Below are positions 47,549 through 62,764 of a stretch of DNA of 64,000 nucleotides, piece after piece (position 1 is the stretch's first letter; the number at the start of each line of letters is the position of its first letter). The position numbers and the translations under genes were made by a program. The stretch is from Brevibacillus brevis (lineage in GTDB: Bacteria; Bacillota; Bacilli; Brevibacillales; Brevibacillaceae), in the NCBI RefSeq assembly GCF_031583145.1, contig NZ_CP134050.1, positions 4,949,501 to 5,013,500 of the forward strand, read 5' to 3'. The notes beneath the pieces were generated by a model. The model was not told where the DNA came from and did not search any database. It worked only from the letters and a program-made list of their open reading frames with translations.

Positions 47549-47665
47549 GCTGATCCTCCTCCTTTTACCATATCGTATGGACCAAGCAATCGGAGGGATT
47601 GTACACATCACCCGCTATAGTGACACATTTTTTATAAAAGGACTCCTGATAGTCAAAGCCCAATC

Positions 47666-47740: not shown

Positions 47741-48544
47741 TTACAAGACAAAGAACAGGAAACGCAGCACTTCCATATAATCATCGGTCTCAAAGGCAAC
47801 TGTTTTGGGGCCAGTTTGCTTGGCGCCAGGGTAGAATGAACCGCTGTACGCGTGGTAGTGCTCGCGAAAAGCGATCTCGACGTGGAACGATTCAGGCAAA
47901 GGAACGAGGTACTTGGACAGGTCGTCCTTATCCCCGAGAACCGTCTTTACCTCTTCCTTGATCTTTTGCAGCGCCAGATTGGGGTGGATCGAGAGCGACG
48001 CGTTGCCGATCCCTTCGCTGACGGGAACGATCCTGATGTTCGGGTTCAGCTTCTGGGCATCCTCGCAAATCAGCTTGTCGCCGGTCGCGAGCAAGACGGG
48101 TACGCCCTTGTAGGAAGCCGTGAAGGCATTGATCATCAGCTCGCTGGCGATTTCTCCGTTGATTTTCACGTATTCGTTGCGCATGTTCATGGTATGGGCG
48201 AGCGGGTTGCCGTTTTTGCCTCCGGCCGAGTGGTAGCCGATAAAGAACACGCCGGCAAAACTTTCGTCCAGCCCGGCCATCATGAGAAACGGGTCTTTCG
48301 TCCAGCCGCGGAGGATTCTCACTTTTTCCGGCAGCTTCGACGGGTCGAGGTTGCGGGCCGTGCTGTGCGCATCCTTGACGAGAATATCCTCTACTCCGGC
48401 TTCGAATGCCGCTTCGCAGGCGGCGTTCACTTCCTTGCTCATCTGCTCGGTGAAATACTTGCTGAAGGACTTCTCGATGTCGGCTTCGTCCCAGTTTGCA
48501 ATCCCCGTGATACCCTCGATGTCTGCGCTAATGAACAGCTTCAT
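47741..48544 (-). CDS. dppA: D-aminopeptidase DppA (M55 family)
   Basis: Protein of 267 aa, a zinc-dependent decameric aminopeptidase that removes N-terminal D-amino acids such as D-Ala. Metal ligands are visible in SADIEGITG (Asp8, Glu10), KDAHSTARN (His60) and LAHTMNMRNEY, with GEIASELMINAF following. It is the last gene of the operon and overlaps the preceding gene by ATGA. In B. subtilis dppA is first in the dppABCDE operon; here the order is changed. It likely degrades imported cell-wall peptides. Confidence 0.93.
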   Translation of the reverse strand: MKLFISADIEGITGIANWDEADIEKSFSKYFTEQMSKEVNAACEAAFEAGVEDILVKDAHSTARNLDPSKLPEKVRILRGWTKDPFLMMAGLDESFAGVFFIGYHSAGGKNGNPLAHTMNMRNEYVKINGEIASELMINAFTASYKGVPVLLATGDKLICEDAQKLNPNIRIVPVSEGIGNASLSIHPNLALQKIKEEVKTVLGDKDDLSKYLVPLPESFHVEIAFREHYHAYSGSFYPGAKQTGPKTVAFETDDYMEVLRFLFFVL

Positions 48545-49269
48545 ACAGCTACCTCCTTTTTATAGGCAAGCGATGCCTGGACAAACGCCTGGAACAGCCC
48601 CGTGAACTTCGGGTGCCGCTTGGTCATGGCCTCCGGATGCCATTGGACGCCCAGCAGGAACCGCTCTTCCGTGCTTTCGACGGCCTCCACGATCCCGTCC
48701 TCGGAATACGCCGTCGCCACGAGATTTTTTCCCAGCGCTTTGACCGCTTGATGATGGAACGAGTTGGTAAAGATCCGCTCTTCGCCAAAGATCTCGTAGA
48801 GCTTCGACCCCTTTTGGATCTGTACGGAGTGGTACAACTCATCCGCAGCGGTATGCTCGGGAGAATGGCCCAGCGTGCCTGGACACTGGCTGTAAATGTC
48901 CTGATAAAGGCTGCCTTCCAGCGCCACATTGATCAGTTGAATCCCCCGGCAGATCCCAAAGATGGGCATCTTCTTTTCATACGCGCCCCGAAACAGGGAG
49001 AGCTCGTACTCATCCCGAATCGATGACATCGAGTGCAGCTGCCTGACGGGATTTTCGCCATAGTAGTAAGGAGCGATGTCGTTTCCTCCCGTGAACAGCA
49101 GACCATCCACCATGTCCAGGTACGCTTCGTAGTCCGCTTCGCCTTCGACGATGGGAATCGTGACAGGAAGCCCTCCCGCAGCGTAGACCGAGTCGACGTA
49201 ATTGCGATTCACCGTACTGTACTTCGAAGCGTCAGACAGGAACGTCGTCACTCCAATGATTGGTTTCAT
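48541..49269 (-). CDS. Class I glutamine amidotransferase-like peptidase C26 (PuuD-type)
   Basis: Protein of 242 aa that probably hydrolyses a gamma-glutamyl bond. Nucleophile Cys in GICRGIQLINV, His/Glu in GVQWHPEAM, and LLFTGGNDIAP near residue 65 are typical of gamma-glutamyl-GABA hydrolase. In this operon a gamma-D-glutamyl wall peptide is an attractive substrate (inference). ATG 49269 has GAGAGG 5 nt upstream. It overlaps dppA and follows the binding-protein gene after a hairpin. Confidence 0.88.
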   Translation of the reverse strand: MKPIIGVTTFLSDASKYSTVNRNYVDSVYAAGGLPVTIPIVEGEADYEAYLDMVDGLLFTGGNDIAPYYYGENPVRQLHSMSSIRDEYELSLFRGAYEKKMPIFGICRGIQLINVALEGSLYQDIYSQCPGTLGHSPEHTAADELYHSVQIQKGSKLYEIFGEERIFTNSFHHQAVKALGKNLVATAYSEDGIVEAVESTEERFLLGVQWHPEAMTKRHPKFTGLFQAFVQASLAYKKEVAV

Positions 49270-49285
49270 AGCAGCCTCTCCCACG

Positions 49286-49336: not shown

Positions 49337-50998
49337 TTATTCTACATGCGCATACTCAAAAATGGTATGACCGATATAGTTTTTCAGCACGCCTTTGACA
49401 TTCGGCTTCGCCAGGAACTGATCCTCAAAGAAACGCAGCGGCATGAGCGGCATTTCATCCACCAGGATTTTTTCCGCCTTCACGAAGTTTTCCATCCGCT
49501 TTGCCTGATCGGAAATCTTGCGGTTCTCTTCGAGTAGACGGTCGTATTCGGCGCTGCTCCACCGCATGTCGTCGGACGTATTGACACTTTCGAAAATGTC
49601 CAGATTGGTCATCGGGTCCGGGTAGTCTCCCGTCCAGCCGTCATCGGCGATGTTGAAGTTGCCATTGTCGATTTCATCCCAATACACCTTCGATTCAAAC
49701 GTCTGGATGTTCACGTTCACGCCCAGATTTTGCTTCCACATGCTTTGCAGGGCTTGCGCGACGTCTTTGGCGGTCTGGTTGGCCTGCACGATCATCGTGA
49801 CTTCAGGCATTCCCTGGCCGTCCGGATAGCCGGCGTCGGCCAGCAGTTTTTTCGCCTCGTCGACATTTTCGCTGAACAGATTGCCCGCCACATCGCGGTA
49901 TTCCTTGTCTTTTTGCACGCCGTCCGGAATACCGTACGGCACCATGCCAAACGCCGGTTTTTCTACGGACTGGACGATGTTCTTGATGATCTGCTCACGG
50001 TTGATTGCCATGCTGAAAGCCTTTCGCACTCTGGCGTCGTCAAAAGGCTTTTTGGACGCGTTGAAGTCGTAGTACTGCATGCCGATCCGCGGAATCGAGT
50101 AAAAGTCGGGCGTGTTCTGGTACTGCTTCATGCCTTCCGGGCTGATGTTGTCGGAGACTTGGATCTCGCCGTTTGTGTACGCGGCCAGCTCCGCCTCCGT
50201 GGACTCGATGAACACGATCTCCAGCGTATCCAGCTTCACTTTGTCCGCGTCTACGTAGTTCGGATTTTTCTTCAGGACGTATTTTTCTTTCGGCCTAAGT
50301 TCGGACAGCATGAACGGGCCGGTCGTCAAATACGTTTCGGGCGACTTCGTCCAGCCTTCCTTTTCCGCGACGTCTTTTCGCACCGGGTAATAGGCGGTGA
50401 CACAAAGCAGCTCAAGGAAGTACGGCGTCGGATTTTCCAGCGTCACCTCGAGGGTGGTGTCGTCCAACGCCTTGACGCCCACGTCCTCCGCTTTTGCCTT
50501 CTTCTCGTTGTACGCTTTTCCGTTTTTCAGATAGTACAGGTAAAAGGCCGCGCCCGAAGCCACGTCGGGATTCAGCACGCGCTTCCAGGAGTACTCGAAA
50601 TCCCCGGCTGTCACAGGCTTGCCGTCCGACCACTTGGCGTTGGGCTTGAGCTTGAAGGTGTACTTGGTGCCCGTCGAATCCAGTTCATACCCTTCCGCCA
50701 AGGCAGGGACAGGCTTTTTCCCGGATTCGTCGATCTTGTAAAGCCCCCGAAACAGATTTTGCAGAACAATGGATGACCGCGCATAGACGTTGAGCGTCGG
50801 GTCCATCTGCTCCGGCTCCTGACTCAGCGCATACACGATCTTCTGCTCGACCGCAGGCTTTTCTCCTTCCGCTTTGGGCGCGGTCTGCTCCTGTCCCTGC
50901 TGCTGTCCTCCCGCGGTCGTCCCTGAGCTGCTGCATCCGGCCATGACGGTAGTGATCGCGAGGAGCGCTGCCATCATCACACCGATTCGCTTTTTCAT
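49337..50998 (-). CDS. Peptide-binding lipoprotein (OppA/DppE type, SBP family 5)
   Basis: Protein of 553 aa. Lipoprotein signal TTVMAGCSSSG, Gly/Gln-rich linker, then a family 5 peptide-binding fold (KIVYALSQEPEQMDPTLNVY, YTFKLKPNAKWSDGKPVTAGD, TTGPFMLSELRPKEKYVLKKNP, RVRKAFSMAINREQIIKNI). It captures di- or oligopeptides for the permeases encoded upstream. GGGGGG lies 6 nt before the ATG. It is flanked on both sides by intercistronic hairpins, a common way to raise binding-protein levels above those of the membrane subunits. Confidence 0.92.
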   Translation of the reverse strand: MKKRIGVMMAALLAITTVMAGCSSSGTTAGGQQQGQEQTAPKAEGEKPAVEQKIVYALSQEPEQMDPTLNVYARSSIVLQNLFRGLYKIDESGKKPVPALAEGYELDSTGTKYTFKLKPNAKWSDGKPVTAGDFEYSWKRVLNPDVASGAAFYLYYLKNGKAYNEKKAKAEDVGVKALDDTTLEVTLENPTPYFLELLCVTAYYPVRKDVAEKEGWTKSPETYLTTGPFMLSELRPKEKYVLKKNPNYVDADKVKLDTLEIVFIESTEAELAAYTNGEIQVSDNISPEGMKQYQNTPDFYSIPRIGMQYYDFNASKKPFDDARVRKAFSMAINREQIIKNIVQSVEKPAFGMVPYGIPDGVQKDKEYRDVAGNLFSENVDEAKKLLADAGYPDGQGMPEVTMIVQANQTAKDVAQALQSMWKQNLGVNVNIQTFESKVYWDEIDNGNFNIADDGWTGDYPDPMTNLDIFESVNTSDDMRWSSAEYDRLLEENRKISDQAKRMENFVKAEKILVDEMPLMPLRFFEDQFLAKPNVKGVLKNYIGHTIFEYAHVE

Positions 50999-51078: not shown

Positions 51079-52062
51079 TTACTCGATCAGGTGGCAGGCG
51101 ACGACGTGTCCTCCTCCGATGTCGCGCAGGCCCGGCTTTTCTTCTGCGCACCTGCCCATCGCATGGGGACAGCGCGTACGAAACGCACAGCCGCTCGGAG
51201 GATTCAACGGACTTGGCACATCACCTTGCAGATGGATTCGTTTGCTTTGTTCGGCTGTATCCGGATCCGCGATCGGCACCGCAGACAGGAGCGCCTGGGT
51301 GTACGGATGCTGCATGTTCGTGTAAAGCTCGTGGACATCGGCGTATTCAACCAGACTTCCCAGATACATCACGCCCACTTTGTGGGAGATGTGCCTGACC
51401 ATCGACAAATCGTGGGACACAAACAGGTAGGTCAGTCCGAAACGCTCCTGGAGCTCCTCGAGCATATTTACCACCTGCGCCTGAATGGACACATCCAGGG
51501 CGGAAATCGGCTCGTCGCAGACGATAAACTCCGGCTCGACCGCAAGCGCACGGGCAATCCCGATCCGTTGGCGCTGCCCGCCGGAAAATTCGTGCGGATA
51601 GCGGCCCAAGTGATCGGCTTTCAGTCCTACCAGCTCGATCAGCTCCTTGACGCGGTCGATCCGGTCCTTTCCCTGGCAGATGTTGTGCACCGCCAGCGGA
51701 TCGCCGACGATCTCCGCAACCGTCATCCGCGGATCGAGCGAGGCAAACGGGTCCTGGAAAATCATCTGCATTTTCTTGCGGTACGGCAGCATCTCCTTGT
51801 GGTTCAGTTTGCTGATCGACTGTCCGTCGTACAAAATATCTCCGGCGGTCGGCTCATACAGCTTTAGCAGCGTCCGTCCGATCGTCGTCTTTCCGCAGCC
51901 GGACTCGCCGACAAGGCCGAACGTCTCCCCCCTCTGAATCGCGAAGCTGACGTCGTCGACTGCCTTCAACAGTGTCCCGCTGCGGCCGAAAAAGTTTTTC
52001 TGCACCTCGAAATACTTCTTGAGATTCCTCACTTCGATCAAAGGCCGATTGGCTGCTCCCAT
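51079..52062 (-). CDS. Peptide ABC transporter ATP-binding protein (DppF type)
   Basis: Protein of 327 aa with Walker [10 protein letters not shown], signature [15 protein letters not shown], Walker [13 protein letters not shown] and the C-terminal peptide-ATPase domain with [14 protein letters not shown]. The ATG at 52062 overlaps the stop codon of the DppD-type gene (TGATG). The same frame continues upstream inside the partner gene and is not used. Confidence 0.92.
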
Positions 52063-53060
52063 CAGCTGATCACCTCTTTCGCGTACGGCTGCGCTTTGGG
52101 GTGCATCAGCCAGCACGCCGCCTGATGCGTCTCGGAGAGCGAGATCGGCCGGGGCGGGAGCTTCTCGCATATTTTCATGGCGTGCGGACACCTGGCCGTA
52201 AACGCGCAGCCCGCCGGTGGCCGCAGCAGGTCGGGCGGACTGCCCGGGATGGAAATGAGCTTTTTCTTTTCCCCTTCCGAAAATTGCGGGATAGAGCGCA
52301 GCAGCCCCCACGTATACGGGTGCTTCGGCTCGTAGAAGATTTCGCGGGTCGTCCCCTGCTCGACGATGGCTCCGCCGTACATGACGACGATCCGGTTGCA
52401 CATGTTGGCGATCACGCCGAGGTCGTGGGTAATCATGACGATGGACACGTTCAGCTTGTTTTTGAGGTCGCGCATCAGATCGAGAATTTGTGCCTGGATC
52501 GTCACATCGAGGGCTGTGGTCGGCTCGTCTGCGATCAGCAGCTTGGGCGAACAGGACAGGGCGATCGCGATCATGACCCGCTGTCTCATGCCGCCGGAAA
52601 ATTCGTGGGGATACTGCTTCAGCCTGCTCTCCGGGCTGGGGATTTCGACCATCTGCAAAATTTCGATCGCCCGTTTGCGCGCCTCTTCCTTGGACAGCTT
52701 TTGATGAATGCGCAGCGGCTCCATGATTTGCTGGCCGACGGTAAACAGCGGATTGAGGGACGTCATAGGGTCCTGAAAAATCATCCCGATGTCTTTACCG
52801 AGCATCTTTCTCATCGCCTTTTGGTTGGTGCGCAGCAGTTCGATTCCGTCGAACGAGATGCTGTCCGCCGTCAGCTCGGCGTTCGGCGGGAGCAGCTTTA
52901 ACAGGGACAGCATGGACACGCTTTTGCCCGAGCCCGACTCCCCGACGATCCCGACGGATTCCCCTTTGTTTACGTGAAAGGAAATGCCTCGGACCGCCTG
53001 CACTTGTCCCGCTTCAATATGAAAGGTCGTTTTCAGATTCTGTACCTGGAGCAGTTTCAT
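52062..53060 (-). CDS. Peptide ABC transporter ATP-binding protein (DppD type)
   Basis: Protein of 332 aa with Walker [10 protein letters not shown], signature [15 protein letters not shown], Walker [13 protein letters not shown] and a C-terminal [14 protein letters not shown] segment. It pairs with the DppF-type ATPase. Starts 14 bp after the permease stop codon. Confidence 0.92.
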
Positions 53061-53074
53061 GGTTTCACCCGCCT

Positions 53075-54052
53075 CTATTTCTTTAACCTCGGATCCAAAG
53101 CGTCGCGCAGCCCGTCACCGATGAAGTTGAGGGCAAACATCGTGAGGCTGATCGCAATGGCCGGAAACAGCATCTGATACGGCTGGGTAAACAAGGTCGG
53201 AATCGCGTCATTCACGAGCGTGCCCCAGCTGGCCATCGGGACCTGGATGCCGATCCCCAAAAAGCTGAGGAACGCTTCGGTAAAGATCGCCGATGGAACA
53301 AGGAACGTGACCGTCACGATGATGGGCCCCATGCTGTTGGGGATGAGGTGCTTGAACAGGATGCGCATGTTGGAGGAGCCTGTGGCCCGCGCAGCCAGGA
53401 CGTACTCCTGGTGCTTGAGCGTTATGACCTGCGAGCGCACCATGCGTGCAGTCCCGATCCAATACGTCAGGGACATGGCGAGGAGAATGCTTTGGATGTT
53501 GTTGCCGAGGAACATCATCAATAGGATGATGTAGAGCAGCTCCGGGACGCCGATGAGAATATCCACGATCCGCATCATGACCATGTCCACTTTGCCGCCG
53601 AAATACCCCGAAATGCCGCCGTAGATCACGCCGATCACCAGATTGATCGCGGCCGCTGCCACCCCGATCGTCAGACTGATGCGGGCACCGTACATGGCCC
53701 GAACGAAGATGTCCCGCCCGAATTTGTCCGTGCCGAACCAATGCTCTGCCGATGGGCCCTGGTTCTGGTTGGCAATGTCTTGCCCGTCGTAGGTGTACTG
53801 GGAAAAGATCGGCCCGAGGATCGCGGCGATCGTAATGATCAGGATGACGACAAGTCCGATCATCGCCAAAGGATCTTTGCGAAAGCGGCTCCACGCGTCT
53901 TGCCAGTACGATTTGCTGGGACGGGCGATACTCTCCGTCTGCCTCTGCGACTCGTCCAGCCTGGCGAAGTCTTCATCCGGCAAATCCGCCCACTCCTGGT
54001 CAAGTTCTTCGAGAGGAGGGGCTCCTTCGATTTGTTTCGCTGCATCGTTCAT
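53075..54052 (-). CDS. Peptide ABC transporter permease (DppC type)
   Basis: Protein of 325 aa. A long acidic cytoplasmic N-terminus (about 70 residues) precedes the OppC N-terminal segment (SRFRKDPLAMIGLVVILIIT), GTDKFGRDIFVRAMYGAR and the coupling loop AARATGSSNMRILFKHLIPN. Six membrane segments. Starts 7 bp after the DppB stop. Confidence 0.92.
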   Translation of the reverse strand: MNDAAKQIEGAPPLEELDQEWADLPDEDFARLDESQRQTESIARPSKSYWQDAWSRFRKDPLAMIGLVVILIITIAAILGPIFSQYTYDGQDIANQNQGPSAEHWFGTDKFGRDIFVRAMYGARISLTIGVAAAAINLVIGVIYGGISGYFGGKVDMVMMRIVDILIGVPELLYIILLMMFLGNNIQSILLAMSLTYWIGTARMVRSQVITLKHQEYVLAARATGSSNMRILFKHLIPNSMGPIIVTVTFLVPSAIFTEAFLSFLGIGIQVPMASWGTLVNDAIPTLFTQPYQMLFPAIAISLTMFALNFIGDGLRDALDPRLKK

Positions 54053-54059
54053 CGTGTCA

Positions 54060-54986
54060 TCACTCCTCCATTTTTACCCGTCGGTCGATCACGGCGTAGA
54101 GTATGTCGACGATCAAGTTCGAGATGATGATGAAAAGTCCGAGGAAGACCGTCAGACCGAGGATGACGGAGTAATCGCGGTCGCTGATGCCGGTCACGAA
54201 GTCCCGGCCTATGCCTGGAATGGAGAATACCCGCTCCACGATAAAGCTGCCGGTCAAGAGCGCAGCCACGAGGGGGCCGAGATACGTCACAATCGGGATG
54301 ATGGCATTTTTGAGAGCGTGCTTGAAAATGACGCGGTACTCGGGAACCCCTTTGGCTCTGGCTGTCAGGATGTAGTCCTGGCGCATTACTTCGAGCATGC
54401 TCGACCTCATCAGCCTGGCGATGTAGGCGATCGGCCCGAATGCAAGACCGATGACGGGCAGGATGTAGTGCTTCCAGCTCGACAAACCGTATGTAGGCAG
54501 GAGCTTCAAGACGACGGCGAACAAAAACAGCATCAGAACCGTAATGACGAAATTCGGGATGGAGATGCCGACGGTCGCAAAAATCATTGAGGCCCAATCA
54601 GCCCATTTCCCCCGCTTGATCGCAGAGGTGATCCCGAGCAGCATCCCGACGACGAGGGCGATGAGGATCGCTACCAGCCCGACCTTGGCGGATACCGGAA
54701 AGCCGCGGGAAATGAGCTCGTTTACAGTGACGTCGGCCTGCTTGAAAGAAAAGCCGAGATCCCCCTGGACGATGCTCTTCAAATAGTTCACGTATTGCAC
54801 GCCAAGCGGTTCGCTCAGTCCGAACTTCTCTTCCATTTTCTCCAGCACGGCCTTGGGCACTTTTCGCTCTTCCGCCGGGCTGAAGGGGCCGCCCGGAACG
54901 GCGTGCATGAGGAAAAAGGTGATGGTGATGAGGACAAACATCGTGAGAATGCTCGCAAAAAGCCGTTTGACAATATATCCGGCCAT
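54060..54986 (-). CDS. Peptide ABC transporter permease (DppB type)
   Basis: Protein of 308 aa with six membrane segments, DppB N-terminus (FASILTMFVLITITFFLMHAVPGGP) and coupling loop YILTARAKGVPEYRVIFKHALKN. First transport gene, 32 bp after the stop codon of the regulator gene, so regulator and transporter are probably one transcript. Confidence 0.92.
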   Translation of the reverse strand: MAGYIVKRLFASILTMFVLITITFFLMHAVPGGPFSPAEERKVPKAVLEKMEEKFGLSEPLGVQYVNYLKSIVQGDLGFSFKQADVTVNELISRGFPVSAKVGLVAILIALVVGMLLGITSAIKRGKWADWASMIFATVGISIPNFVITVLMLFLFAVVLKLLPTYGLSSWKHYILPVIGLAFGPIAYIARLMRSSMLEVMRQDYILTARAKGVPEYRVIFKHALKNAIIPIVTYLGPLVAALLTGSFIVERVFSIPGIGRDFVTGISDRDYSVILGLTVFLGLFIIISNLIVDILYAVIDRRVKMEE

Positions 54987-55018: not shown

Positions 55019-56299
55019 TTACGGACTGTTCCTGACTTTCACTTCCTCTGCCAGCCGCTGCAGATCGATGCGGTAAATGGGGCGGGGCCTGCCTCTCTGG
55101 CTCATCGATTCGCTGCCGATCGCTTCTGCGATGCCTTTTTCCTTCATCCTCTGGACCATCCGCGCCGCGTTTCGCTCGCCCGTATTCATTCCGACGCTGA
55201 TTTCCCGCGTCGTTACCTCGTTTTTCTGAATGAGCTGCAGCCAGGAAAACAGCTTGCGCATAGAAGTGGAGGCAAAATCGCCCTGCCGCTCGTCGATAAG
55301 CGAATAATCCAGAGTGTTTCTCGTTCCCAGCGGGCCCAGCACCTTCATTTGGTCGTCGATCAGGTAGGCGCTGTTGCCCGGATGGCGTTCGGCGAAATGA
55401 ACGGCGCGCCCGGCATTGTACAAGGCTCGTTCGACGGTATCTCCCATTCCAATCCCCAGATTGATCGTTCCTTGCTCTCCGCTTCCGTTTTTGAGGATCG
55501 GGAAGCTCGTGAAGTCCTTTGTCACCTTTTCCACGATGCCCCTGGTCGTGTACAGCGTGTACTCACCGGGATCGCCGCTGGTCATGGAGGCGAACAATCT
55601 CTTGCTAAGGTCGGTTATTTTCTTGTAGTACCGCTCCTCGTGCTGGCTGTCTTCTGTCGGCCGAAGCCTGAATTGCAGCACCGTGATTTGGGCCAGCTGC
55701 TTCTTTTGATCCCTCGCGAGCCACAATGCCTTCCCCACGGTGTCGCGGATGAGCTGCTTCGTGCTCCTGATGAAAAAAACCGGCAGATGGTTGGCTTTAA
55801 GCCGCTGGTAAACGGAATGGATGCTCGTGGCGACAACTTGAGCCACTCCTTCTTGCCACAGAGACATGTGATGCTCGTAAAGCTCCTCGGAATTTTGGAA
55901 GCCGTCCATATTTTTCGAGTACCACTTCACGTTCGGGGCTTCGATCTCATCGAAAAATTCTTGCAGGTGCTTTGCTGGGATGCCGTCAAAGCTGATGATC
56001 GGAAAGAAATGATAATGGCGGTAAATTTGCATCATGGCCTTGTACAGCTCTGTTCCTTCAAAGGGGATGAAAACCGAGCAGGAATGAGGAGGGATCAGGT
56101 CTTGGGAGAGAAGGAACGGCACATCGCCACTGAAGAAATACACGTCGAAGACTTCCATGGTTGACTGGAGCAAGTCGCGCACATTTTTTTCGGAGTCGTA
56201 GATGAGCCTGGTCGGTTCGATATGCGGAAATTCCTGCAGTACGTCGCAAATGTCGTCGACAAGCAGCTTGGGTCCAATTACAGCAAATGAGAAGTGCAA
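55019..56299 (-). CDS. Unrecognised regulator: sensor / cyclase-fold / DNA-binding protein
   Basis: Protein of 426 aa, not assigned to a named family. Residues 1-185 look like an alpha/beta sensor (FAVIGPKLLVDDICDVLQEF, FDVYFFSGDVPFLL). Residues about 200-320 resemble the ferredoxin-like fold of nucleotide cyclases or GTP cyclohydrolase III: INLGIGMGDTVERALYNAGR, with AYLIDD after it, lacking a GGDEF motif. Residues about 340-420 look like a winged helix (TREISVGMNTGERNAARMVQ, then a GRPRPIYRI wing). A cytoplasmic DNA-binding sensor is inferred. TTG start at 56299 with AAGGTG upstream. It leads the dipeptide/D-aminopeptidase operon. Paired direct repeats lie in its leader. Confidence 0.75.
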   Translation of the reverse strand: MHFSFAVIGPKLLVDDICDVLQEFPHIEPTRLIYDSEKNVRDLLQSTMEVFDVYFFSGDVPFLLSQDLIPPHSCSVFIPFEGTELYKAMMQIYRHYHFFPIISFDGIPAKHLQEFFDEIEAPNVKWYSKNMDGFQNSEELYEHHMSLWQEGVAQVVATSIHSVYQRLKANHLPVFFIRSTKQLIRDTVGKALWLARDQKKQLAQITVLQFRLRPTEDSQHEERYYKKITDLSKRLFASMTSGDPGEYTLYTTRGIVEKVTKDFTSFPILKNGSGEQGTINLGIGMGDTVERALYNAGRAVHFAERHPGNSAYLIDDQMKVLGPLGTRNTLDYSLIDERQGDFASTSMRKLFSWLQLIQKNEVTTREISVGMNTGERNAARMVQRMKEKGIAEAIGSESMSQRGRPRPIYRIDLQRLAEEVKVRNSP

Positions 56300-56318
56300 C
56301 CAATCACCTTCTAGCAGT

Positions 56319-56340
56319 CTTTAATTTGTCTGTTATTCAT
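56319..56340. repeat. Leader direct repeat, copy 2 (candidate operator)
   Basis: CTTTAATTTGTCTGTTATTC followed by AT, 20 bp before the TTG start of the regulator gene. It matches the copy at 56413-56434 in 19 of 22 positions. Confidence 0.7.
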
Positions 56341-56412
56341 AAAAAGTAGAGGGTATGGTAAAAATAACCAGTAAATTTGAGTGAATAAAAGGTAACTCCC
56401 TTTGAATTTGTT

Positions 56413-56434
56413 CTTTAATTTGTCTGTAATTCGT
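56413..56434. repeat. Leader direct repeat, copy 1 (candidate operator)
   Basis: CTTTAATTTGTCTGTAATTC followed by GT, just downstream of the predicted -10 box (56444-56449). The two copies start 94 bp apart, about nine helical turns, so DNA looping is possible. Confidence 0.7.
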
Positions 56435-56443
56435 CTTATCGTA

Positions 56444-56472
56444 ATACTAGGCACAAAACTCAAAATTGTCAA
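56444..56472 (-). promoter_or_regulatory. Sigma-A promoter of the regulator-dpp operon
   Basis: On the minus strand: -35 TTGACA (56472-56467), a 17-bp spacer, -10 TAGTAT (56449-56444). Transcription would start near 56437, at the upstream operator-like repeat, which leaves a leader of roughly 140 nt. Confidence 0.75.
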
Positions 56473-57831: not shown

Positions 57832-58596
57832 TCACGCACGGCTCATGCGCTCTCGCAACTTCAAGGCGGGAGCAATATCGTTCACCGTCATCAGCAAGGA
57901 ACCGCAGCCCAAAGCGTAGTACACCTGCTGCTCTGCGTCTGGCGAATAGCACCAGGGAAGGATTCCTTGCTCCTCATACTGCCGTACCCGCTCGGGGGTC
58001 AGGAGCTTCATGCTGATGCCGACCGCCCACATTTTGGACAAAGTCCCGCCGGCTCCCGGCACGTAATTGGACATCAGCTCTTCGGGAAAGCCTTGCGTTT
58101 TGCATTGATACGTATCGAAAAGGTGAGCGATGACAGCGGCGTCAAAGCTGGTAAACACGCAGTTGGGAAGCAGCCCGTACTCCCGCAGGATCGAGACTGC
58201 AGCGTCAGCTACCTCGATGGCATCCGGACTCGGCTTGATTTCCACATTCAGCAAGGTATCCGGATAATCGGCCAGCAGCTCGCACAGCTCGGGCAAAGTA
58301 GGAATCTTCAGCCCCTCGTACGCTTTTTTGAACCATCCGCCGGCGTCGAGCTGCTTCAGCTCTGCCAGCGTATGGTCGCCTACCTTGCCCGTACCGTTCG
58401 TCGTACGGTCGACGGTCTCATCGTGAATGATCACGATCGCTTGGTCCTTGGAGAAGCGCAGATCGAATTCCAGCATGTCGGCTCCCTGCTCCAGGGCCCG
58501 CTCGAAGGCAAGCAGCGTGTTCTCGGGATAAGCAGACTTCCAGCCCCGGTGCGCGGCAACGGTAATGGTCTGCCTGTTCCGCAGTGTTTCTATCAT
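57832..58596 (-). CDS. Glycerophosphodiester phosphodiesterase (cytoplasmic, UgpQ-like)
   Basis: Protein of 254 aa without a signal peptide. It cleaves glycerophosphodiesters to glycerol-3-phosphate and an alcohol. Catalytic residues are in AAHRGWKSAYPENT (His16, Arg17, Glu26, Asn27), EFDLR (Glu43, Asp45) and IIHDETVDRTTNGTG (His58). Its place 16 bp after the substrate-binding-protein gene indicates that imported diesters are cleaved in the cytosol. Confidence 0.92.
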   Translation of the reverse strand: MIETLRNRQTITVAAHRGWKSAYPENTLLAFERALEQGADMLEFDLRFSKDQAIVIIHDETVDRTTNGTGKVGDHTLAELKQLDAGGWFKKAYEGLKIPTLPELCELLADYPDTLLNVEIKPSPDAIEVADAAVSILREYGLLPNCVFTSFDAAVIAHLFDTYQCKTQGFPEELMSNYVPGAGGTLSKMWAVGISMKLLTPERVRQYEEQGILPWCYSPDAEQQVYYALGCGSLLMTVNDIAPALKLRERMSRA

Positions 58597-58612
58597 GCTT
58601 CCTTCCCCTCCT

Positions 58613-59920
58613 TTACTCCTTCAGCAGACGCTCGGCTTCTTTCTTGAAGGTGTCCAGAGTCGGCTCGATCGGCTTGTTGTCGTACATGATCGCCTGGATC
58701 GCTTTGAAGAACTCCTGCATGATTTGCGGCCACGCCACATCCTTGTTCGTGTCCACCGCGTACTGCAGCTGGTCATATGCCACTTTGCGGTTGGGATCCT
58801 TCGCCCACAGGTCCTTGATCGCATCCGATTCGACCATCTTTTTGGTGAATGGCAAGTAACCTGAGTCGAGGATAAACTGCTGACCGCCATTCGGGTCGGT
58901 GTTCACCCATTGGATGAACTCCCAGGCCGCTTCCTTCTTGGTGGAATCCGCCAGCATCGCGATGTTTGCTCCGCCCGTCGGCGTGGCAAAGACTTCATCT
59001 TTCGGCAGGTAGGCGGTCACGTAATCGAATTTGGCGTTGTTTTTCACCGTTCCCATGACACCGGTCGACTGGAACATGATCCCGATCTTTTCACTGGTAA
59101 ACATCTGGTTGACGATGTTGCCGGAGTCCTGGGCAGGCGGATAGTACAGGGCGCCCGAGCTCTGCAGGTCTTTCAAGTATTGGAACGTCTTCACCCCTTC
59201 GCCTTTGTCGAAGCCGATCGAGGTGCCTTCCTCGTTGAAAAACTTTCCGTTTGCCTGGCTGATCATCGCGATCGGGTACCAGGTGTCGTACGGCATGCTA
59301 AGGCCGTAGCGCTTGACTTCTCCGTTTTCTTTGACCACCAGCGCTTCCGCTACCTTCTTCAGGTCCTCCCACGTCTGCGGAATCGCCAAGCCCTTTTCAT
59401 CCAGCATCGTCTTGTTGATGTGCATGATGGGTGTCGAACGGTTGAACGGCAGCGACACGACCTTGCCGTCGAACACAGAGTGTCCCATCAGCCCCTCTGG
59501 AAAGTCGTCCTTGCTCACGTTGGACTTCTCCATGAATGGCGTCATATCTTCCAGGACTTCCGCTTCGGCAAACATCTGGACGTAGGCCCGCTCCAGCATG
59601 GTGATGTCGGGCGCCGTTTTGGCCGCGATCGCCTGTTGCAGCTTGGTTACCGTCTCGTCATACGTCCCCTGGAACGTCCCGACGACCTCGACGTTCGGGT
59701 GCGAGTCATTGAAGCGCTTGATCATGGCATCGAGGTATTCGCCGTTTTTCCCTCCGAGGGAATGCCAGAATTGGAGCGTGGTCTTGCCTGCCGGGCTAGC
59801 TGTCTGCTGACCGGAAGACGCCGGTTCGGTGGATTGCTGCCCGCCACCCGAGCATCCCGCGAGTGCGCCGGAGATGACGGTGGTGGCTGCCAGTACGATA
59901 GCCGATAATTTCTTGTTCAT
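58613..59920 (-). CDS. ugpB: Glycerol-3-phosphate/diester-binding lipoprotein (UgpB-like)
   Basis: Protein of 435 aa of solute-binding family 1. Lipoprotein signal ISGALAGCSGGG, then TTLQFWHSLGGKNGEYLDAM, VEVVGTFQGTYDETVTKLQ, DITMLERAYVQMFAEAEVLED and GGANIAMLADSTKKEAAWEFIQW. It resembles sugar-binding proteins, but the operon (GDPD) and LQFWHSLGG start favour UgpB. GGGAGG lies upstream of ATG 59920. Confidence 0.88.
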   Translation of the reverse strand: MNKKLSAIVLAATTVISGALAGCSGGGQQSTEPASSGQQTASPAGKTTLQFWHSLGGKNGEYLDAMIKRFNDSHPNVEVVGTFQGTYDETVTKLQQAIAAKTAPDITMLERAYVQMFAEAEVLEDMTPFMEKSNVSKDDFPEGLMGHSVFDGKVVSLPFNRSTPIMHINKTMLDEKGLAIPQTWEDLKKVAEALVVKENGEVKRYGLSMPYDTWYPIAMISQANGKFFNEEGTSIGFDKGEGVKTFQYLKDLQSSGALYYPPAQDSGNIVNQMFTSEKIGIMFQSTGVMGTVKNNAKFDYVTAYLPKDEVFATPTGGANIAMLADSTKKEAAWEFIQWVNTDPNGGQQFILDSGYLPFTKKMVESDAIKDLWAKDPNRKVAYDQLQYAVDTNKDVAWPQIMQEFFKAIQAIMYDNKPIEPTLDTFKKEAERLLKE

Positions 59921-59938
59921 GGAAGTTCCTCCCATCTC

Positions 59939-60802
59939 TTATTTAATGCCGGAATAGGTGAATGCCTTGACGATCTGTCTGGAAGCGAACAGGTACACGA
60001 TCAGGATCGGGACGACCAGGACCACGTTGCCCGCCATGATGATGTGCCAATTGCTGATGCCCTCCGTCTCGCGGAGCATGGCGATTCCCATCGTGAGCGG
60101 CCGGACCGCCTCGGAGTCGGTCATGACCAGCGGCCAAAAATAGTCGTTCCAATGGCTGACAAAGCTGAACAGCGCGACCGTGGAAATGGCCGGCATGGAC
60201 ATCGGGATCATGATTTTCCCAATAATTTTGAACTCGCTCGCGTTGTCCAACCGGGCTGATTCGATGATCTCCTGCGGGATTTGCATGAAATACTGCCGGA
60301 GGAGAAAGATCCCGAACGCATTGGACATGAACGGCAGGATCTGCGGCCACAGCGACTTGATCAGTCCCGCATCCGCCAGCATCAGATAGACCGGGATAAA
60401 GGTCACTTGTCCGGGGATCATGAACGCAAGCAGCACCATCCCAAACAGAATTCCTTTTCCGAAAAATTTGTACTGCGCAAAGGCGTAGGCAGCCGGAATC
60501 ATGACCATAAGCTGCAGCAGGATGATCGAGAATGTGACGATCACGGAGTTTTTGAAATAAGTCAGGAACGGTCCCGAGCTCATCGCCTCCACAAAGTTGC
60601 TCCACTGCGGGGAAGCCGGGATCCAGGTAGGCGGAAACCGCATCGTTTCCTCAAAGGTCTGAAGCGAGGTGGAGATCATCCACAGGAACGGGAAAACAAA
60701 CCCCATGAGCGCGACCGCTTTGAAAAACGCGTTCCACGCCTTCCCGCCCCTCCCTGCTCCCGTCCGCATCTTGCCTGGCTTCTTTTCTCGTTGCGACAGC
60801 AC
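59939..60802 (-). CDS. ugpE: Carbohydrate/glycerophosphate ABC permease (UgpE-like)
   Basis: Protein of 287 aa with six membrane segments. MalG/UgpE motifs: FPFLWMISTSLQTFEETMRFPP near the start, coupling loop ESARLDNASEFKIIGKIMIPMSMPA, and the RQIVKAFTYSGIK C-terminus. GTG at 60802 with AGGAGG about 10 nt upstream. 18 bp before the UgpB gene. Confidence 0.9.
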   Translation of the reverse strand: MLSQREKKPGKMRTGAGRGGKAWNAFFKAVALMGFVFPFLWMISTSLQTFEETMRFPPTWIPASPQWSNFVEAMSSGPFLTYFKNSVIVTFSIILLQLMVMIPAAYAFAQYKFFGKGILFGMVLLAFMIPGQVTFIPVYLMLADAGLIKSLWPQILPFMSNAFGIFLLRQYFMQIPQEIIESARLDNASEFKIIGKIMIPMSMPAISTVALFSFVSHWNDYFWPLVMTDSEAVRPLTMGIAMLRETEGISNWHIIMAGNVVLVVPILIVYLFASRQIVKAFTYSGIK

Positions 60803-60840
60803 CGGTGAGGCACCTCCTTTTCTGGTCGGATCGGGGACGA

Positions 60841-61719
60841 TTATTGGTAGTGAACCTTGTTTGCCAGCATCCGGAAGTAAATGAAGGTGAGCACCGTAAT
60901 AATCGCCATCAAGACTACCCCCGTGGCGGAAGCATAGCCGATGCTGGTCGTCCGAAATTCATAAATGTAGTAAACGAGCGTGGTCGTCGAGCCGTTGGGC
61001 CCCCCGCCCGTCATGATCTTGACGGTATCGAACACTTTGAACGAGCCGATCGTCATGATGACGAGGATGAAAAAGAGCTGAGGGGAAATCATCGGCAGCG
61101 TGATCTTGTAAAACACTTTGAATTTGCTCGCATTATCAAGAGCGGCAGCTTCGTAGATCGTCTGCGGGATGTTTTTCAATGCCGCTACGATGAGCAGGGA
61201 GTAGTAGCCGACGTTTTGCCACACCGAGACGATGATGACGGAAAGCAGCGAGGTGCTCGAGCTTTGCAGCCAGGGAAGGGCAGGCAAGCCAACCGCCTTC
61301 AGGGCGTAATTGAGCAGCCCGTAATTGGGCTCCATCATCCACATCCACACGAGCGCAATGGAGACGATCGAGATGATGTGCGGCGTAAAAATGCCGGCCT
61401 GCACAATCGCATGGAAGCGCGAATTCTGATTCAGCCACAGTGCAATCGCCAGCGACAAAATCATCGTGATGGCGACCACCCCAACCGTGTACAGAACGGT
61501 AGTGGTCAATGCGTTGTAAAAATCGCCGCGGGTGAAAATCTCCGAGTAATTGGCAGCACCGATGAATTTGCTTTTATCCTTGTTCAGCAGGTTGTACTTG
61601 AACAGACTCAGCTTGATCAAATAAAAGATGGGGTACACGACAAACAGCAGGATGCCGACCATGGCCGGCAGGACCAGGGCGTACGGGCGGGCTTTTTGCC
61701 AAACTCTCGTCCTATTCAT
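60841..61719 (-). CDS. ugpA: Carbohydrate/glycerophosphate ABC permease (UgpA-like)
   Basis: Protein of 292 aa with six membrane segments. MalF/UgpA motifs include RPYALVLPAMVGILLFVVYPIFYLI, coupling loop EAAALDNASKFKVFYKITLPMISP and MTGGGPNGSTTTLVYYIYE. The ATG at 61719 overlaps the ugpC end by 8 bp. Confidence 0.9.
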   Translation of the reverse strand: MNRTRVWQKARPYALVLPAMVGILLFVVYPIFYLIKLSLFKYNLLNKDKSKFIGAANYSEIFTRGDFYNALTTTVLYTVGVVAITMILSLAIALWLNQNSRFHAIVQAGIFTPHIISIVSIALVWMWMMEPNYGLLNYALKAVGLPALPWLQSSSTSLLSVIIVSVWQNVGYYSLLIVAALKNIPQTIYEAAALDNASKFKVFYKITLPMISPQLFFILVIMTIGSFKVFDTVKIMTGGGPNGSTTTLVYYIYEFRTTSIGYASATGVVLMAIITVLTFIYFRMLANKVHYQ

Positions 61720-62764
61720 GCCGCATTCCTCGCAGGATGCTCATGTATTCTTGGCAGCGCGCGTCTTCCTGCGGAATGCACCGCTCGTCCGGGCCAAAAA
61801 AGAAGAGCTTGGAGCCCTCGACACCCAGAAACACTTCCTGATCGACGGCTAGCCGGTCATCCGTGCATTTGATCATGAACGAGTGACGCCCCGCCTTGAC
61901 CTGATAAATGGTCTCGGAGCCGAGCATCTCCCGCGTCACGATCATACCTCGAACGGAAAAGGGCAGATCCTGCCTCTCTGTCGACAAGATGCCGTTCTCC
62001 GGCCGAAAGCCGAATCTGGCCCCGTCATGCGCCAAATCCCCCACGTTCATCGGAGGCACACCGATAAACTGGGCCGCGAACAAATTGCTCGGCTGGCGGT
62101 AGATCACCTCGGGAGCGGCTTCCTGCTGAATGCGTCCCTGATTCATCAGGACGATCGTATCCGCCATCGACATCGCTTCCACCTGATCGTGCGTGACATA
62201 GACGAAGGTAGTTCCCAGCTTTTTATGTAGTTCGATCAGCTCGATGCGCATTTGTGCGCGAAGCTTGGCGTCCAAATTGGAGAGCGGCTCATCCATGAGA
62301 AAGACAGACGGTTTTTTGACCATCGCCCGGGCGAGAGCCACCCGCTGTCTTTGCCCACCCGAGAGCATCGCAGGCTTGCGGTCCAGGTAAGGGGTCAAGC
62401 CGACTGTCTCGCTGATGCTCTCTACCAGCCGTTTTCTCTCCTCTTTGCCCACCTTGTTGTTCTTCAAGCCGAATTCGATGTTCTCGCGCACCGTCATCGT
62501 CGGGTACAAGGCGTAGTTTTGAAACACCATGGCTACGCCTCGCTGGCCCGGCGGTACATCCGTGACGTCCTCCCCTCCGATGAGCACATTCCCGGAGGTC
62601 TGTCTGTCCAGCCCGGCGATCATCCGCAGCAGCGTCGTTTTGCCGCAGCCCGACGGTCCGACCAGCACGGTAAACTTCCCATCCTCGATCTTCAGATTCA
62701 GATCCTTGATCACGACATTTTTGTCAAAAGCCTGCGTCACATTCACAAACTCAATAGCTGCCAA
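61712..62764 (-). CDS. ugpC: ABC transporter ATP-binding protein (UgpC/MsmK type)
   Basis: Protein of 350 aa. Walker A GPSGCGKTT (37-45), Q-loop FQNYALYPTMTV, signature LSGGQRQRVALARAM, Walker B VFLMDEPLSNLD and a C-terminal MalK-type OB domain (about 235-345). It energises UgpA/UgpE. First gene of the operon. The promoter region upstream contains PhoP-like and CodY-like elements. Confidence 0.9.
   Translation of the reverse strand: MAAIEFVNVTQAFDKNVVIKDLNLKIEDGKFTVLVGPSGCGKTTLLRMIAGLDRQTSGNVLIGGEDVTDVPPGQRGVAMVFQNYALYPTMTVRENIEFGLKNNKVGKEERKRLVESISETVGLTPYLDRKPAMLSGGQRQRVALARAMVKKPSVFLMDEPLSNLDAKLRAQMRIELIELHKKLGTTFVYVTHDQVEAMSMADTIVLMNQGRIQQEAAPEVIYRQPSNLFAAQFIGVPPMNVGDLAHDGARFGFRPENGILSTERQDLPFSVRGMIVTREMLGSETIYQVKAGRHSFMIKCTDDRLAVDQEVFLGVEGSKLFFFGPDERCIPQEDARCQEYMSILRGMRHE

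Follow-up and report, generated by a model that had tools for sequence, protein, structure and literature searches.

Several described proteins share one part or another with the regulator considered here. PrpR-type proteins carry a sigma-54 activator domain, GTP cyclohydrolase III is an archaeal enzyme of two tandem palms, and GdpP is a membrane c-di-AMP phosphodiesterase. The N-terminal domain of PrpR (PrpR_N) is listed among the sensor domains of sigma-54 activators in PMC6615313, and MabR, a regulator of the PucR/CdaR type, combines a globin-like sensor with an all-alpha helix-turn-helix domain according to PMC11617747.

The regulator analyzed here is encoded in a 64,000-nucleotide stretch of DNA from Brevibacillus brevis, referred to below as the window. 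Like MabR, the window protein joins a sensor, a GGDEF-like domain without the catalytic motif, and a C-terminal DNA-binding domain. In contrast to MabR, its sensor has the fold of the PrpR sensor (2pju, 2q5c), although the sequence similarity is not significant, and its DNA-binding domain is a winged helix, with beta strands forming the wing, which argues against assigning the protein to the PucR/CdaR type. The PrpR-like sensor is followed by a palm and a winged helix in place of sigma-54 machinery. The palm resembles GTP cyclohydrolase III (2qv6; PF05165), but the window protein has one palm, situated inside a transcription factor. The winged helix is similar to that of the ROK repressor Lmo0178 (5f7q), whose sugar-kinase-like domain the window protein lacks.

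The regulator and its domains

The regulator gene and its parts are as follows.

55019..56299, minus strand: regulator gene, 426 aa, TTG start (open reading frame list, ribosome-binding site, orthologs)
56303..56312, minus strand: ribosome-binding site AGAAGGTGAT, preceding the TTG start
55700..56299, minus strand: PrpR-N-like two-lobed alpha/beta receptor domain, residues 1-200
55292..55699, minus strand: palm (GGDEF- or GTP-cyclohydrolase-III-like) domain without GG[DE]EF, residues 201-336
55538..55567, minus strand: hairpin GEYTLYTTRG, residues 245-254, with conserved TTRG, in the place of the GGDEF motif (alignments)
55442..55456, minus strand: GIGMG, residues 282-286, family-invariant glycines, resembling a stretch of GTP cyclohydrolase III
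55022..55294, minus strand: winged helix-turn-helix domain, residues 336-426 (structure prediction, fold search)
55082..55096, minus strand: RGRPR, residues 402-406, between two wing strands of the model

The stretch INLGIGMGDTVERALYNAGR, quoted in an earlier note made from the letters of the window, lies within this 426-codon open reading frame on the minus strand. Judging from its orthologs in other genomes, the reading frame is a real gene: proteins with 83–86% identity occur in six other genomes and more distant ones, with 47% and 41% identity, in two more, and the named contigs with 82–85% identical proteins are from Brevibacillus. Both the ribosome-binding site and the TTG start are kept in an alignment of six orthologous upstream regions. 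The window protein exceeds no curated family cut-off in Pfam or NCBIfam, and membership of a named family was rejected for this reason; a single-sequence search of the PDB gave no match either. Weak matches in PHROGs are confined to the winged helix (best E 0.006), and a viral origin was rejected after six peptide patterns of the window protein found no viral contig encoding a relative. A search of the open-licence literature found no paper recognizable as a description of the regulator family.

The family alignment used below (A6) comprises the window protein and 36 of 45 loci, several ranges being trimmed by a few codons at the 3' end. Left out were L066 and L094, whose ranges crossed a stop, and L052, L071, L073, L079, L090, L092, and L093. 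At L094 (7971-9329, Ferroacidibacillus organovorans) the homolog occupies two successive frames, one with the receptor and half of the palm and the next with the rest.

An alpha/beta receptor at the N-terminus, a cyclase-like core, and a C-terminal winged helix had been read from the letters in the earlier note, and structure prediction and fold search back all three. Residues 1-200 match the fold of the PrpR N-terminal domain. A profile comparison with PrpR_N by hhalign is collinear over the domain, with a probability of 1.7% and E 0.029; a search with PF06506 gave no match to the window protein at E 10, hence none above the curated cut-off, and a single match, at another locus, in its own genome. 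No family match to a sigma-54 AAA+ domain or to a ROK kinase-like domain was found in the window protein, where residues 201-426 are palm and winged helix and the part preceding the winged helix is receptor and palm. Seven residues of the receptor domain are invariant in the family (F56, G58, L85, S103, D105, H144, and T158), and four of them (F56, G58, D105, and T158) lie in the predicted model where a strand ends or a helix begins, a placement that hints at a ligand moiety common to the family. The receptor fold points to a small ligand, and it is only the neighboring genes that suggest a peptide- or amino-acid-like one.

The best structural match of the DNA-binding domain is Lmo0178 in complex with its operator (5f7q; Foldseek E 3.5e-4, TM 0.61 by query length), with many other winged helices scoring nearly equal. 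The GRPR motif between the wing strands is invariant in the 37 aligned members.

The palm domain and the nucleotide question

A structure search with the predicted palm matched class III cyclases, diguanylate cyclases, and Cas10; cyclase-type chains filled the matches listed, and the absence of GTP cyclohydrolase III among them is uninformative. The GG[DE]EF motif occurs in none of the 37 aligned and none of the 75 nonredundant members, which bears out the earlier reading of a cyclase-like fold without the catalytic motif. In our reading of the alignments, the GEYTLYTTRG hairpin would be the equivalent of the GGDEF hairpin. The first palm strand of the window protein, QITVLQFRLRP, has no acidic residue; many sister members have E and D at this position, and two aligned orthologs have one E.

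The proposed resemblance to GTP cyclohydrolase III has some statistical backing at the level of the family. When the Pfam GCH_III model (PF05165) was compared with 21 genomes, the top eight matches listed were paralogs of the window protein, one of which exceeded the cut-off (22.1 bits compared to 21.3); the window protein was not among the matches listed, whereas other frames were. The stretch GIGIG-TA--A---A is common to GTP cyclohydrolase III and the family profile, with an E of 0.11 that is not significant alone. The degenerate GGDEF domain of GdpP (PF24898) is matched by 18 of the 37 members at E ≤ 0.05 (best 1.5e-5) and not by the window protein at E 0.05.

The fold matches and the GCH_III matches among paralogs speak for a palm that is still a working nucleotide enzyme producing a second messenger, but we regard such an enzyme as highly improbable in view of the lack of the motif in the aligned and nonredundant members and of the window protein's first strand, which lacks the acidic residues seen in many of its sisters and, singly, in two orthologs. 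Catalysis by the palm was set aside on these two grounds. The domain probably serves dimerization or signal transfer, and it may still bind a nucleotide.

The operon headed by the regulator

Seven genes and two flanking signals follow from or surround the regulator.

56444..56472, minus strand: promoter-like site TTGACA-17-TAGTAT
54060..54986, minus strand: DppB/OppB-type permease
53075..54052, minus strand: DppC/OppC-type permease
52062..53060, minus strand: DppD/OppD-type ATPase
51079..52020, minus strand: DppF/OppF-type ATPase, start approximate
49337..50998, minus strand: SBP_bac_5 peptide-binding lipoprotein
48541..49284, minus strand: Peptidase_C26, gamma-glutamyl hydrolase-like
47741..48544, minus strand: Peptidase_M55 D-aminopeptidase, DppA-like
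47640..47661, minus strand: terminator-like hairpin and T tract after the last gene (M55)

The regulator had been placed at the head of an eight-gene operon, and this arrangement is confirmed by gaps of at most 80 bp (the start of the fourth importer gene being approximate), a promoter-like site in front, and a terminator-like site behind. The importer genes stand together with M55, as in a DppA operon, and both ATPases have oligo_HPY tails. Promoter-like sites are no more frequent in the searched region than in shuffled sequences (4 compared to 4.8), and the promoter assignment therefore relies on its -35 element, which is kept in the six orthologous upstream regions. There are 16 terminator-like sites compared to 11.1 in shuffles. 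A structured RNA in the leader was rejected, as no Rfam match reached the gathering score in the window. Further upstream, at 57832-62764, translations inspected by eye suggest an ordinary-looking ABC importer set and a glycerophosphodiesterase-like gene. The earlier proposal is supported in part: the protein looks like an undescribed three-domain transcription factor, below the curated cut-offs of Pfam and NCBIfam, that probably controls the dpp-type operon it heads.

Candidate operators in the window clade

Two identical sites lie between the promoter-like site and the start codon.

56412..56426, minus strand: candidate operator 1, CAGACAAATTAAAGA, shortly after the -10
56318..56332, minus strand: candidate operator 2, same sequence as operator 1, 94 bp beyond it and shortly before the ribosome-binding site

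They are same-direction copies of a 15-bp site with the core CAGACAWATTARAGA. In the aligned six upstream regions, two blocks are conserved along with the -35, while the remaining DNA has mostly diverged. With up to two mismatches allowed, three sites were found in the window compared to 0.12 in shuffles. The exact 15-mer occurs 12 times in the seven genomes that have a close ortholog, and 11 of the 12 copies are upstream of the ortholog. None of the eight congeneric genomes that lack the ortholog has the 15-mer; sites with one mismatch number 13 there, compared to 18 for a reversed-pattern control. Genome G015 has no exact copy and two with one mismatch, both upstream of its ortholog. The spacing between the two sites is 94 or 95 bp in all seven genomes. 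One extra exact dpp-type site was observed inside a short open reading frame of another locus (L202, G023:C19:50250).

The distant orthologs L043 and L044 (47% and 41% identity) were outside the set that defined the 15-mer. The L043 region has copies with two and three mismatches 95 bp apart, and other genes lie downstream of its regulator; the L044 region has copies with one and three mismatches 147 bp apart, with no dpp-type gene found behind the regulator in the unmasked part, 1.4 kb there being masked. Of 1000 shuffles each of the L043 and L044 regions, 1 and 0 had at least two matches to a loosened 14-mer pattern, AGACWWATTARAGA with two mismatches. Since the pattern was loosened after these sites had been seen, a motif-free repeat search is the fairer check, and in that search 0 of 40 shuffles for L043 and 1 of 40 for L044 were as good as the real sequence. 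Non-overlapping pairs of AGACWWATTARAGA in gene direction were found, among the 75 nonredundant loci, only in three members of the window clade; the support of the clade holding these three loci is 1.0. Because looser pairs are present at L043 and L044 with no dpp genes found behind the regulator, the sites seem to follow the regulator rather than the dpp genes. The three spacings correspond to 8.95, 9.05, and 14.0 helical turns of 10.5 bp.

When the motif-free search was applied to 104 upstream regions, L031 and L043 ranked first. Only 4 of the 104 loci surpassed all 40 of their shuffles. Two of these four (L079 and L082) are outside both clades with candidate operators, and for several orthologs of the window clade 2 to 9 of 40 shuffles were as good as the real sequence. 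The assignment of these sites as candidate operators is based on their conservation and co-inheritance.

A second clade with paired sites

The same search indicated a pair of sites 137 bp apart at L092 and L089, with 1 and 2 of 40 shuffles as good. A search of 20 congeneric genomes found 19 copies of the core of this Opp-type site, CCTAAAACATYCCT, in 10 genomes that are mostly close relatives; each of the 19 lies at most 400 bp upstream of a family member, and the reversed pattern has 9 matches in the same 20 genomes. Nine genomes contain two copies, spaced by 137 bp (138 in G015), or about 13 turns, and G018 has one exact copy and a second one that differs at one base. In G015, which is more diverged, both sites and some other blocks are kept while much of the surrounding DNA has changed. 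At L089 and L092, both sites are in the gap between the regulator and a divergent opp operon. At these loci the Opp-clade paralog and the opp genes, a permease pair and ATPases, diverge, which gives the family a second peptide importer as a neighbor. The alignment of the Opp clade consisted of five regions and G015, and L222-L226 entered only in the site search. With one free position, further sites upstream of paralogs appear as a pair 139 bp apart in G021 and singly in G023 and G009; among the loci, L226 has two sites 139 bp apart, L223 and L224 have one each, and L222 and L225 have none. In six regions (L213, L214, L219-L221, and L227) both sites are longer than the core and contain ACGGAAATT, or in some rows ACGGAATTT or ACGGAAAAT, and ACGGAAATT or its variants stand a few bases before CCTAAAACAT.

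In our reading, both operator types could be direct repeats with an 11-bp step, AGAC-N7-AGAC and CCT-N8-CCT. Upstream footprints and the repeat search gave no clear paired site in the Geobacillus and Brevibacillus M20 groups, and none was evident among the listed rows of the AbgT-clade upstream alignment. A block like TTTGCTAT shortly precedes the ribosome-binding site in 8 of 10 aligned upstream regions of the Brevibacillus M20 clade (L032, L056-L058, L061, L064, L065, and L095). The D-aminoacylase clade has one conserved upstream block, TAACGGAAATTGCAT, at L229, L230, and L232-L234. This block resembles the start of the Opp-clade site; its 11-mer AACGGAAATTG is absent from the window.

Family distribution and gene neighborhoods

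Counting the genome of the window in each case, the family was detected in 38 of 60 genomes in a first search, in 109 of 299 genomes (about a third) of a sample of the class at E 1e-10, and in 17 of 299 genomes of a sample of the phylum at E 1e-20. There are seven family matches in the window's own genome and up to 14 per genome elsewhere. Four plasmid records contain a match, with 20.5–24.3% identity; one is an 11.85-Mb record and two are actinobacterial. Three of these matches are annotated as hypothetical proteins and the fourth has no annotation. The divergent, shorter members of G158 and G168 (L104, L105, L198, and L199; about 400 aa, E 3.2e-43 and 4.5e-41) belong to one genus with genomes of roughly 3 Mb, and an M20 gene is located about 1.6 kb away.

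For the neighborhood counts, 105 loci were reduced to 75 by removal of 30 that were redundant at 80% identity, and 40 stretches at round coordinates in 11 genomes served as controls. An M20 gene was found within 3 kb at 48 of 75 loci compared with 1 of 40 control regions. Within 5 kb, a DHDPS-like gene or one of the listed hydrolases or transporters was found at 64 of 75 compared with 2 of 40, and 11 of the 75 loci had no member of any tested family. The neighbor profiles were built from loci L031-L095, and counts on those loci are partly circular for this reason. In a later set of 40 loci (L162-L201, 35 nonredundant), M20 was found within 5 kb at 24 of 35 and any hydrolase at 25.

Genes for M55 or C26, searched with custom profiles, were found within 9 kb at only 12 of the 105 loci, which represent seven genomes, five of them seen twice, and all belong to the window's close ortholog group. 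A family tied to dpp genes alone was accordingly rejected. Gene context broadly tracks the tree: clades are characterized by M20 with a carbamoylase-like M20 enzyme and a symporter, by AbgT with M20, by D-aminoacylase with a beta-lactamase-like protein and a His-type importer, by a DHDPS-like and epimerase-like pair, and by the dpp-type operon of the window. The Geobacillus stearothermophilus aminoacylase-carbamoylase operon resembles the M20 neighborhoods of the family. With M20 amidohydrolases, carbamoylase-like M20 enzymes, D-aminoacylase-like enzymes, and various transporters as the other neighbors, use of peptides or acyl-amino acids suits the family better than wall-peptide recycling, the role put forward in the earlier note.

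Proposed mechanism and alternatives

Support for a regulatory role comes from the three predicted folds, from two same-direction 15-bp sites that are co-inherited with the clade, and from a spacing near whole helical turns. We consider it likely that the window protein acts locally, as a one-component transcription factor that controls, most likely by repression, its own eight-gene operon of peptide import and cleavage. Its winged helices would bind the paired sites as direct repeats with the 11-bp step, and oligomers on both sites would meet on the same face of the DNA and close off the leader, so that transcription is blocked. Spacings close to whole turns (9, 14, and 13) favor such protein–protein contact across the sites. 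The block could then be released by a peptide- or amino-acid-like molecule, imported or processed, that binds in the PrpR-like cleft. Sister clades would play the same role at M20 amidohydrolase, D-aminoacylase, carbamoylase, and peptide-importer operons, each with its own operator.

The preference for repression over activation derives from the position of the window sites, both of which are downstream of the -10, where activators rarely sit. The protein could instead be an activator or dual regulator that the two sites position to recruit or release RNA polymerase, as regulators of catabolic operons often are activators and the paired sites at L089 and L092 occupy a divergent intergenic region; given the arrangement in the window, we find this unlikely. 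It is very unlikely that the paired sites are those of a global regulator, for instance CodY, with the local regulator acting elsewhere. CodY controls dpp in Bacillus subtilis and the sites are AT-rich and upstream of a dpp-type operon, but a global regulator should have many sites, whereas 11 of the 12 exact copies belong to this operon, and the site is missing from eight congeneric genomes that lack the ortholog and recurs in looser form before regulators that other genes follow (L043) or behind which no dpp-type gene was found in the unmasked part (L044).

A separate question is what the operon processes. An M55 D-aminopeptidase and a C26 gamma-glutamyl hydrolase-like enzyme in one operon could indicate recycling of wall (murein) peptides, with a D-Ala- or gamma-D-Glu-containing peptide as the ligand. 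We see this as a doubtful possibility, as other gamma-glutamyl or D-amino-acid peptides fit equally well, the L043 ortholog precedes other genes, and the M20-type hydrolases and transporters that generally accompany the family have no visible link to the wall.

Beyond the local repressor, we can speculate, as a rather doubtful extension, that the family integrates two signals: the PrpR-type receptor would sense a peptide- or amino-acid-like ligand, and the palm, a retired GTP-cyclohydrolase-III/GGDEF domain, would sense a purine nucleotide (GTP). The logic would be like that of CodY, in a protein unrelated to it, and each member would clamp one catabolic operon by means of a pair of direct-repeat operators of its own, placed whole helical turns apart.

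The family, which occurs in about a third of the sampled genomes of its class, includes in the window a member that exceeds no curated Pfam or NCBIfam cut-off. Two of its clades come with specific operator predictions, which makes joint tests of DNA binding, ligand sensing, and nucleotide sensing possible, and the gene neighborhoods suggest substrates for many amidohydrolase operons in Bacilli.
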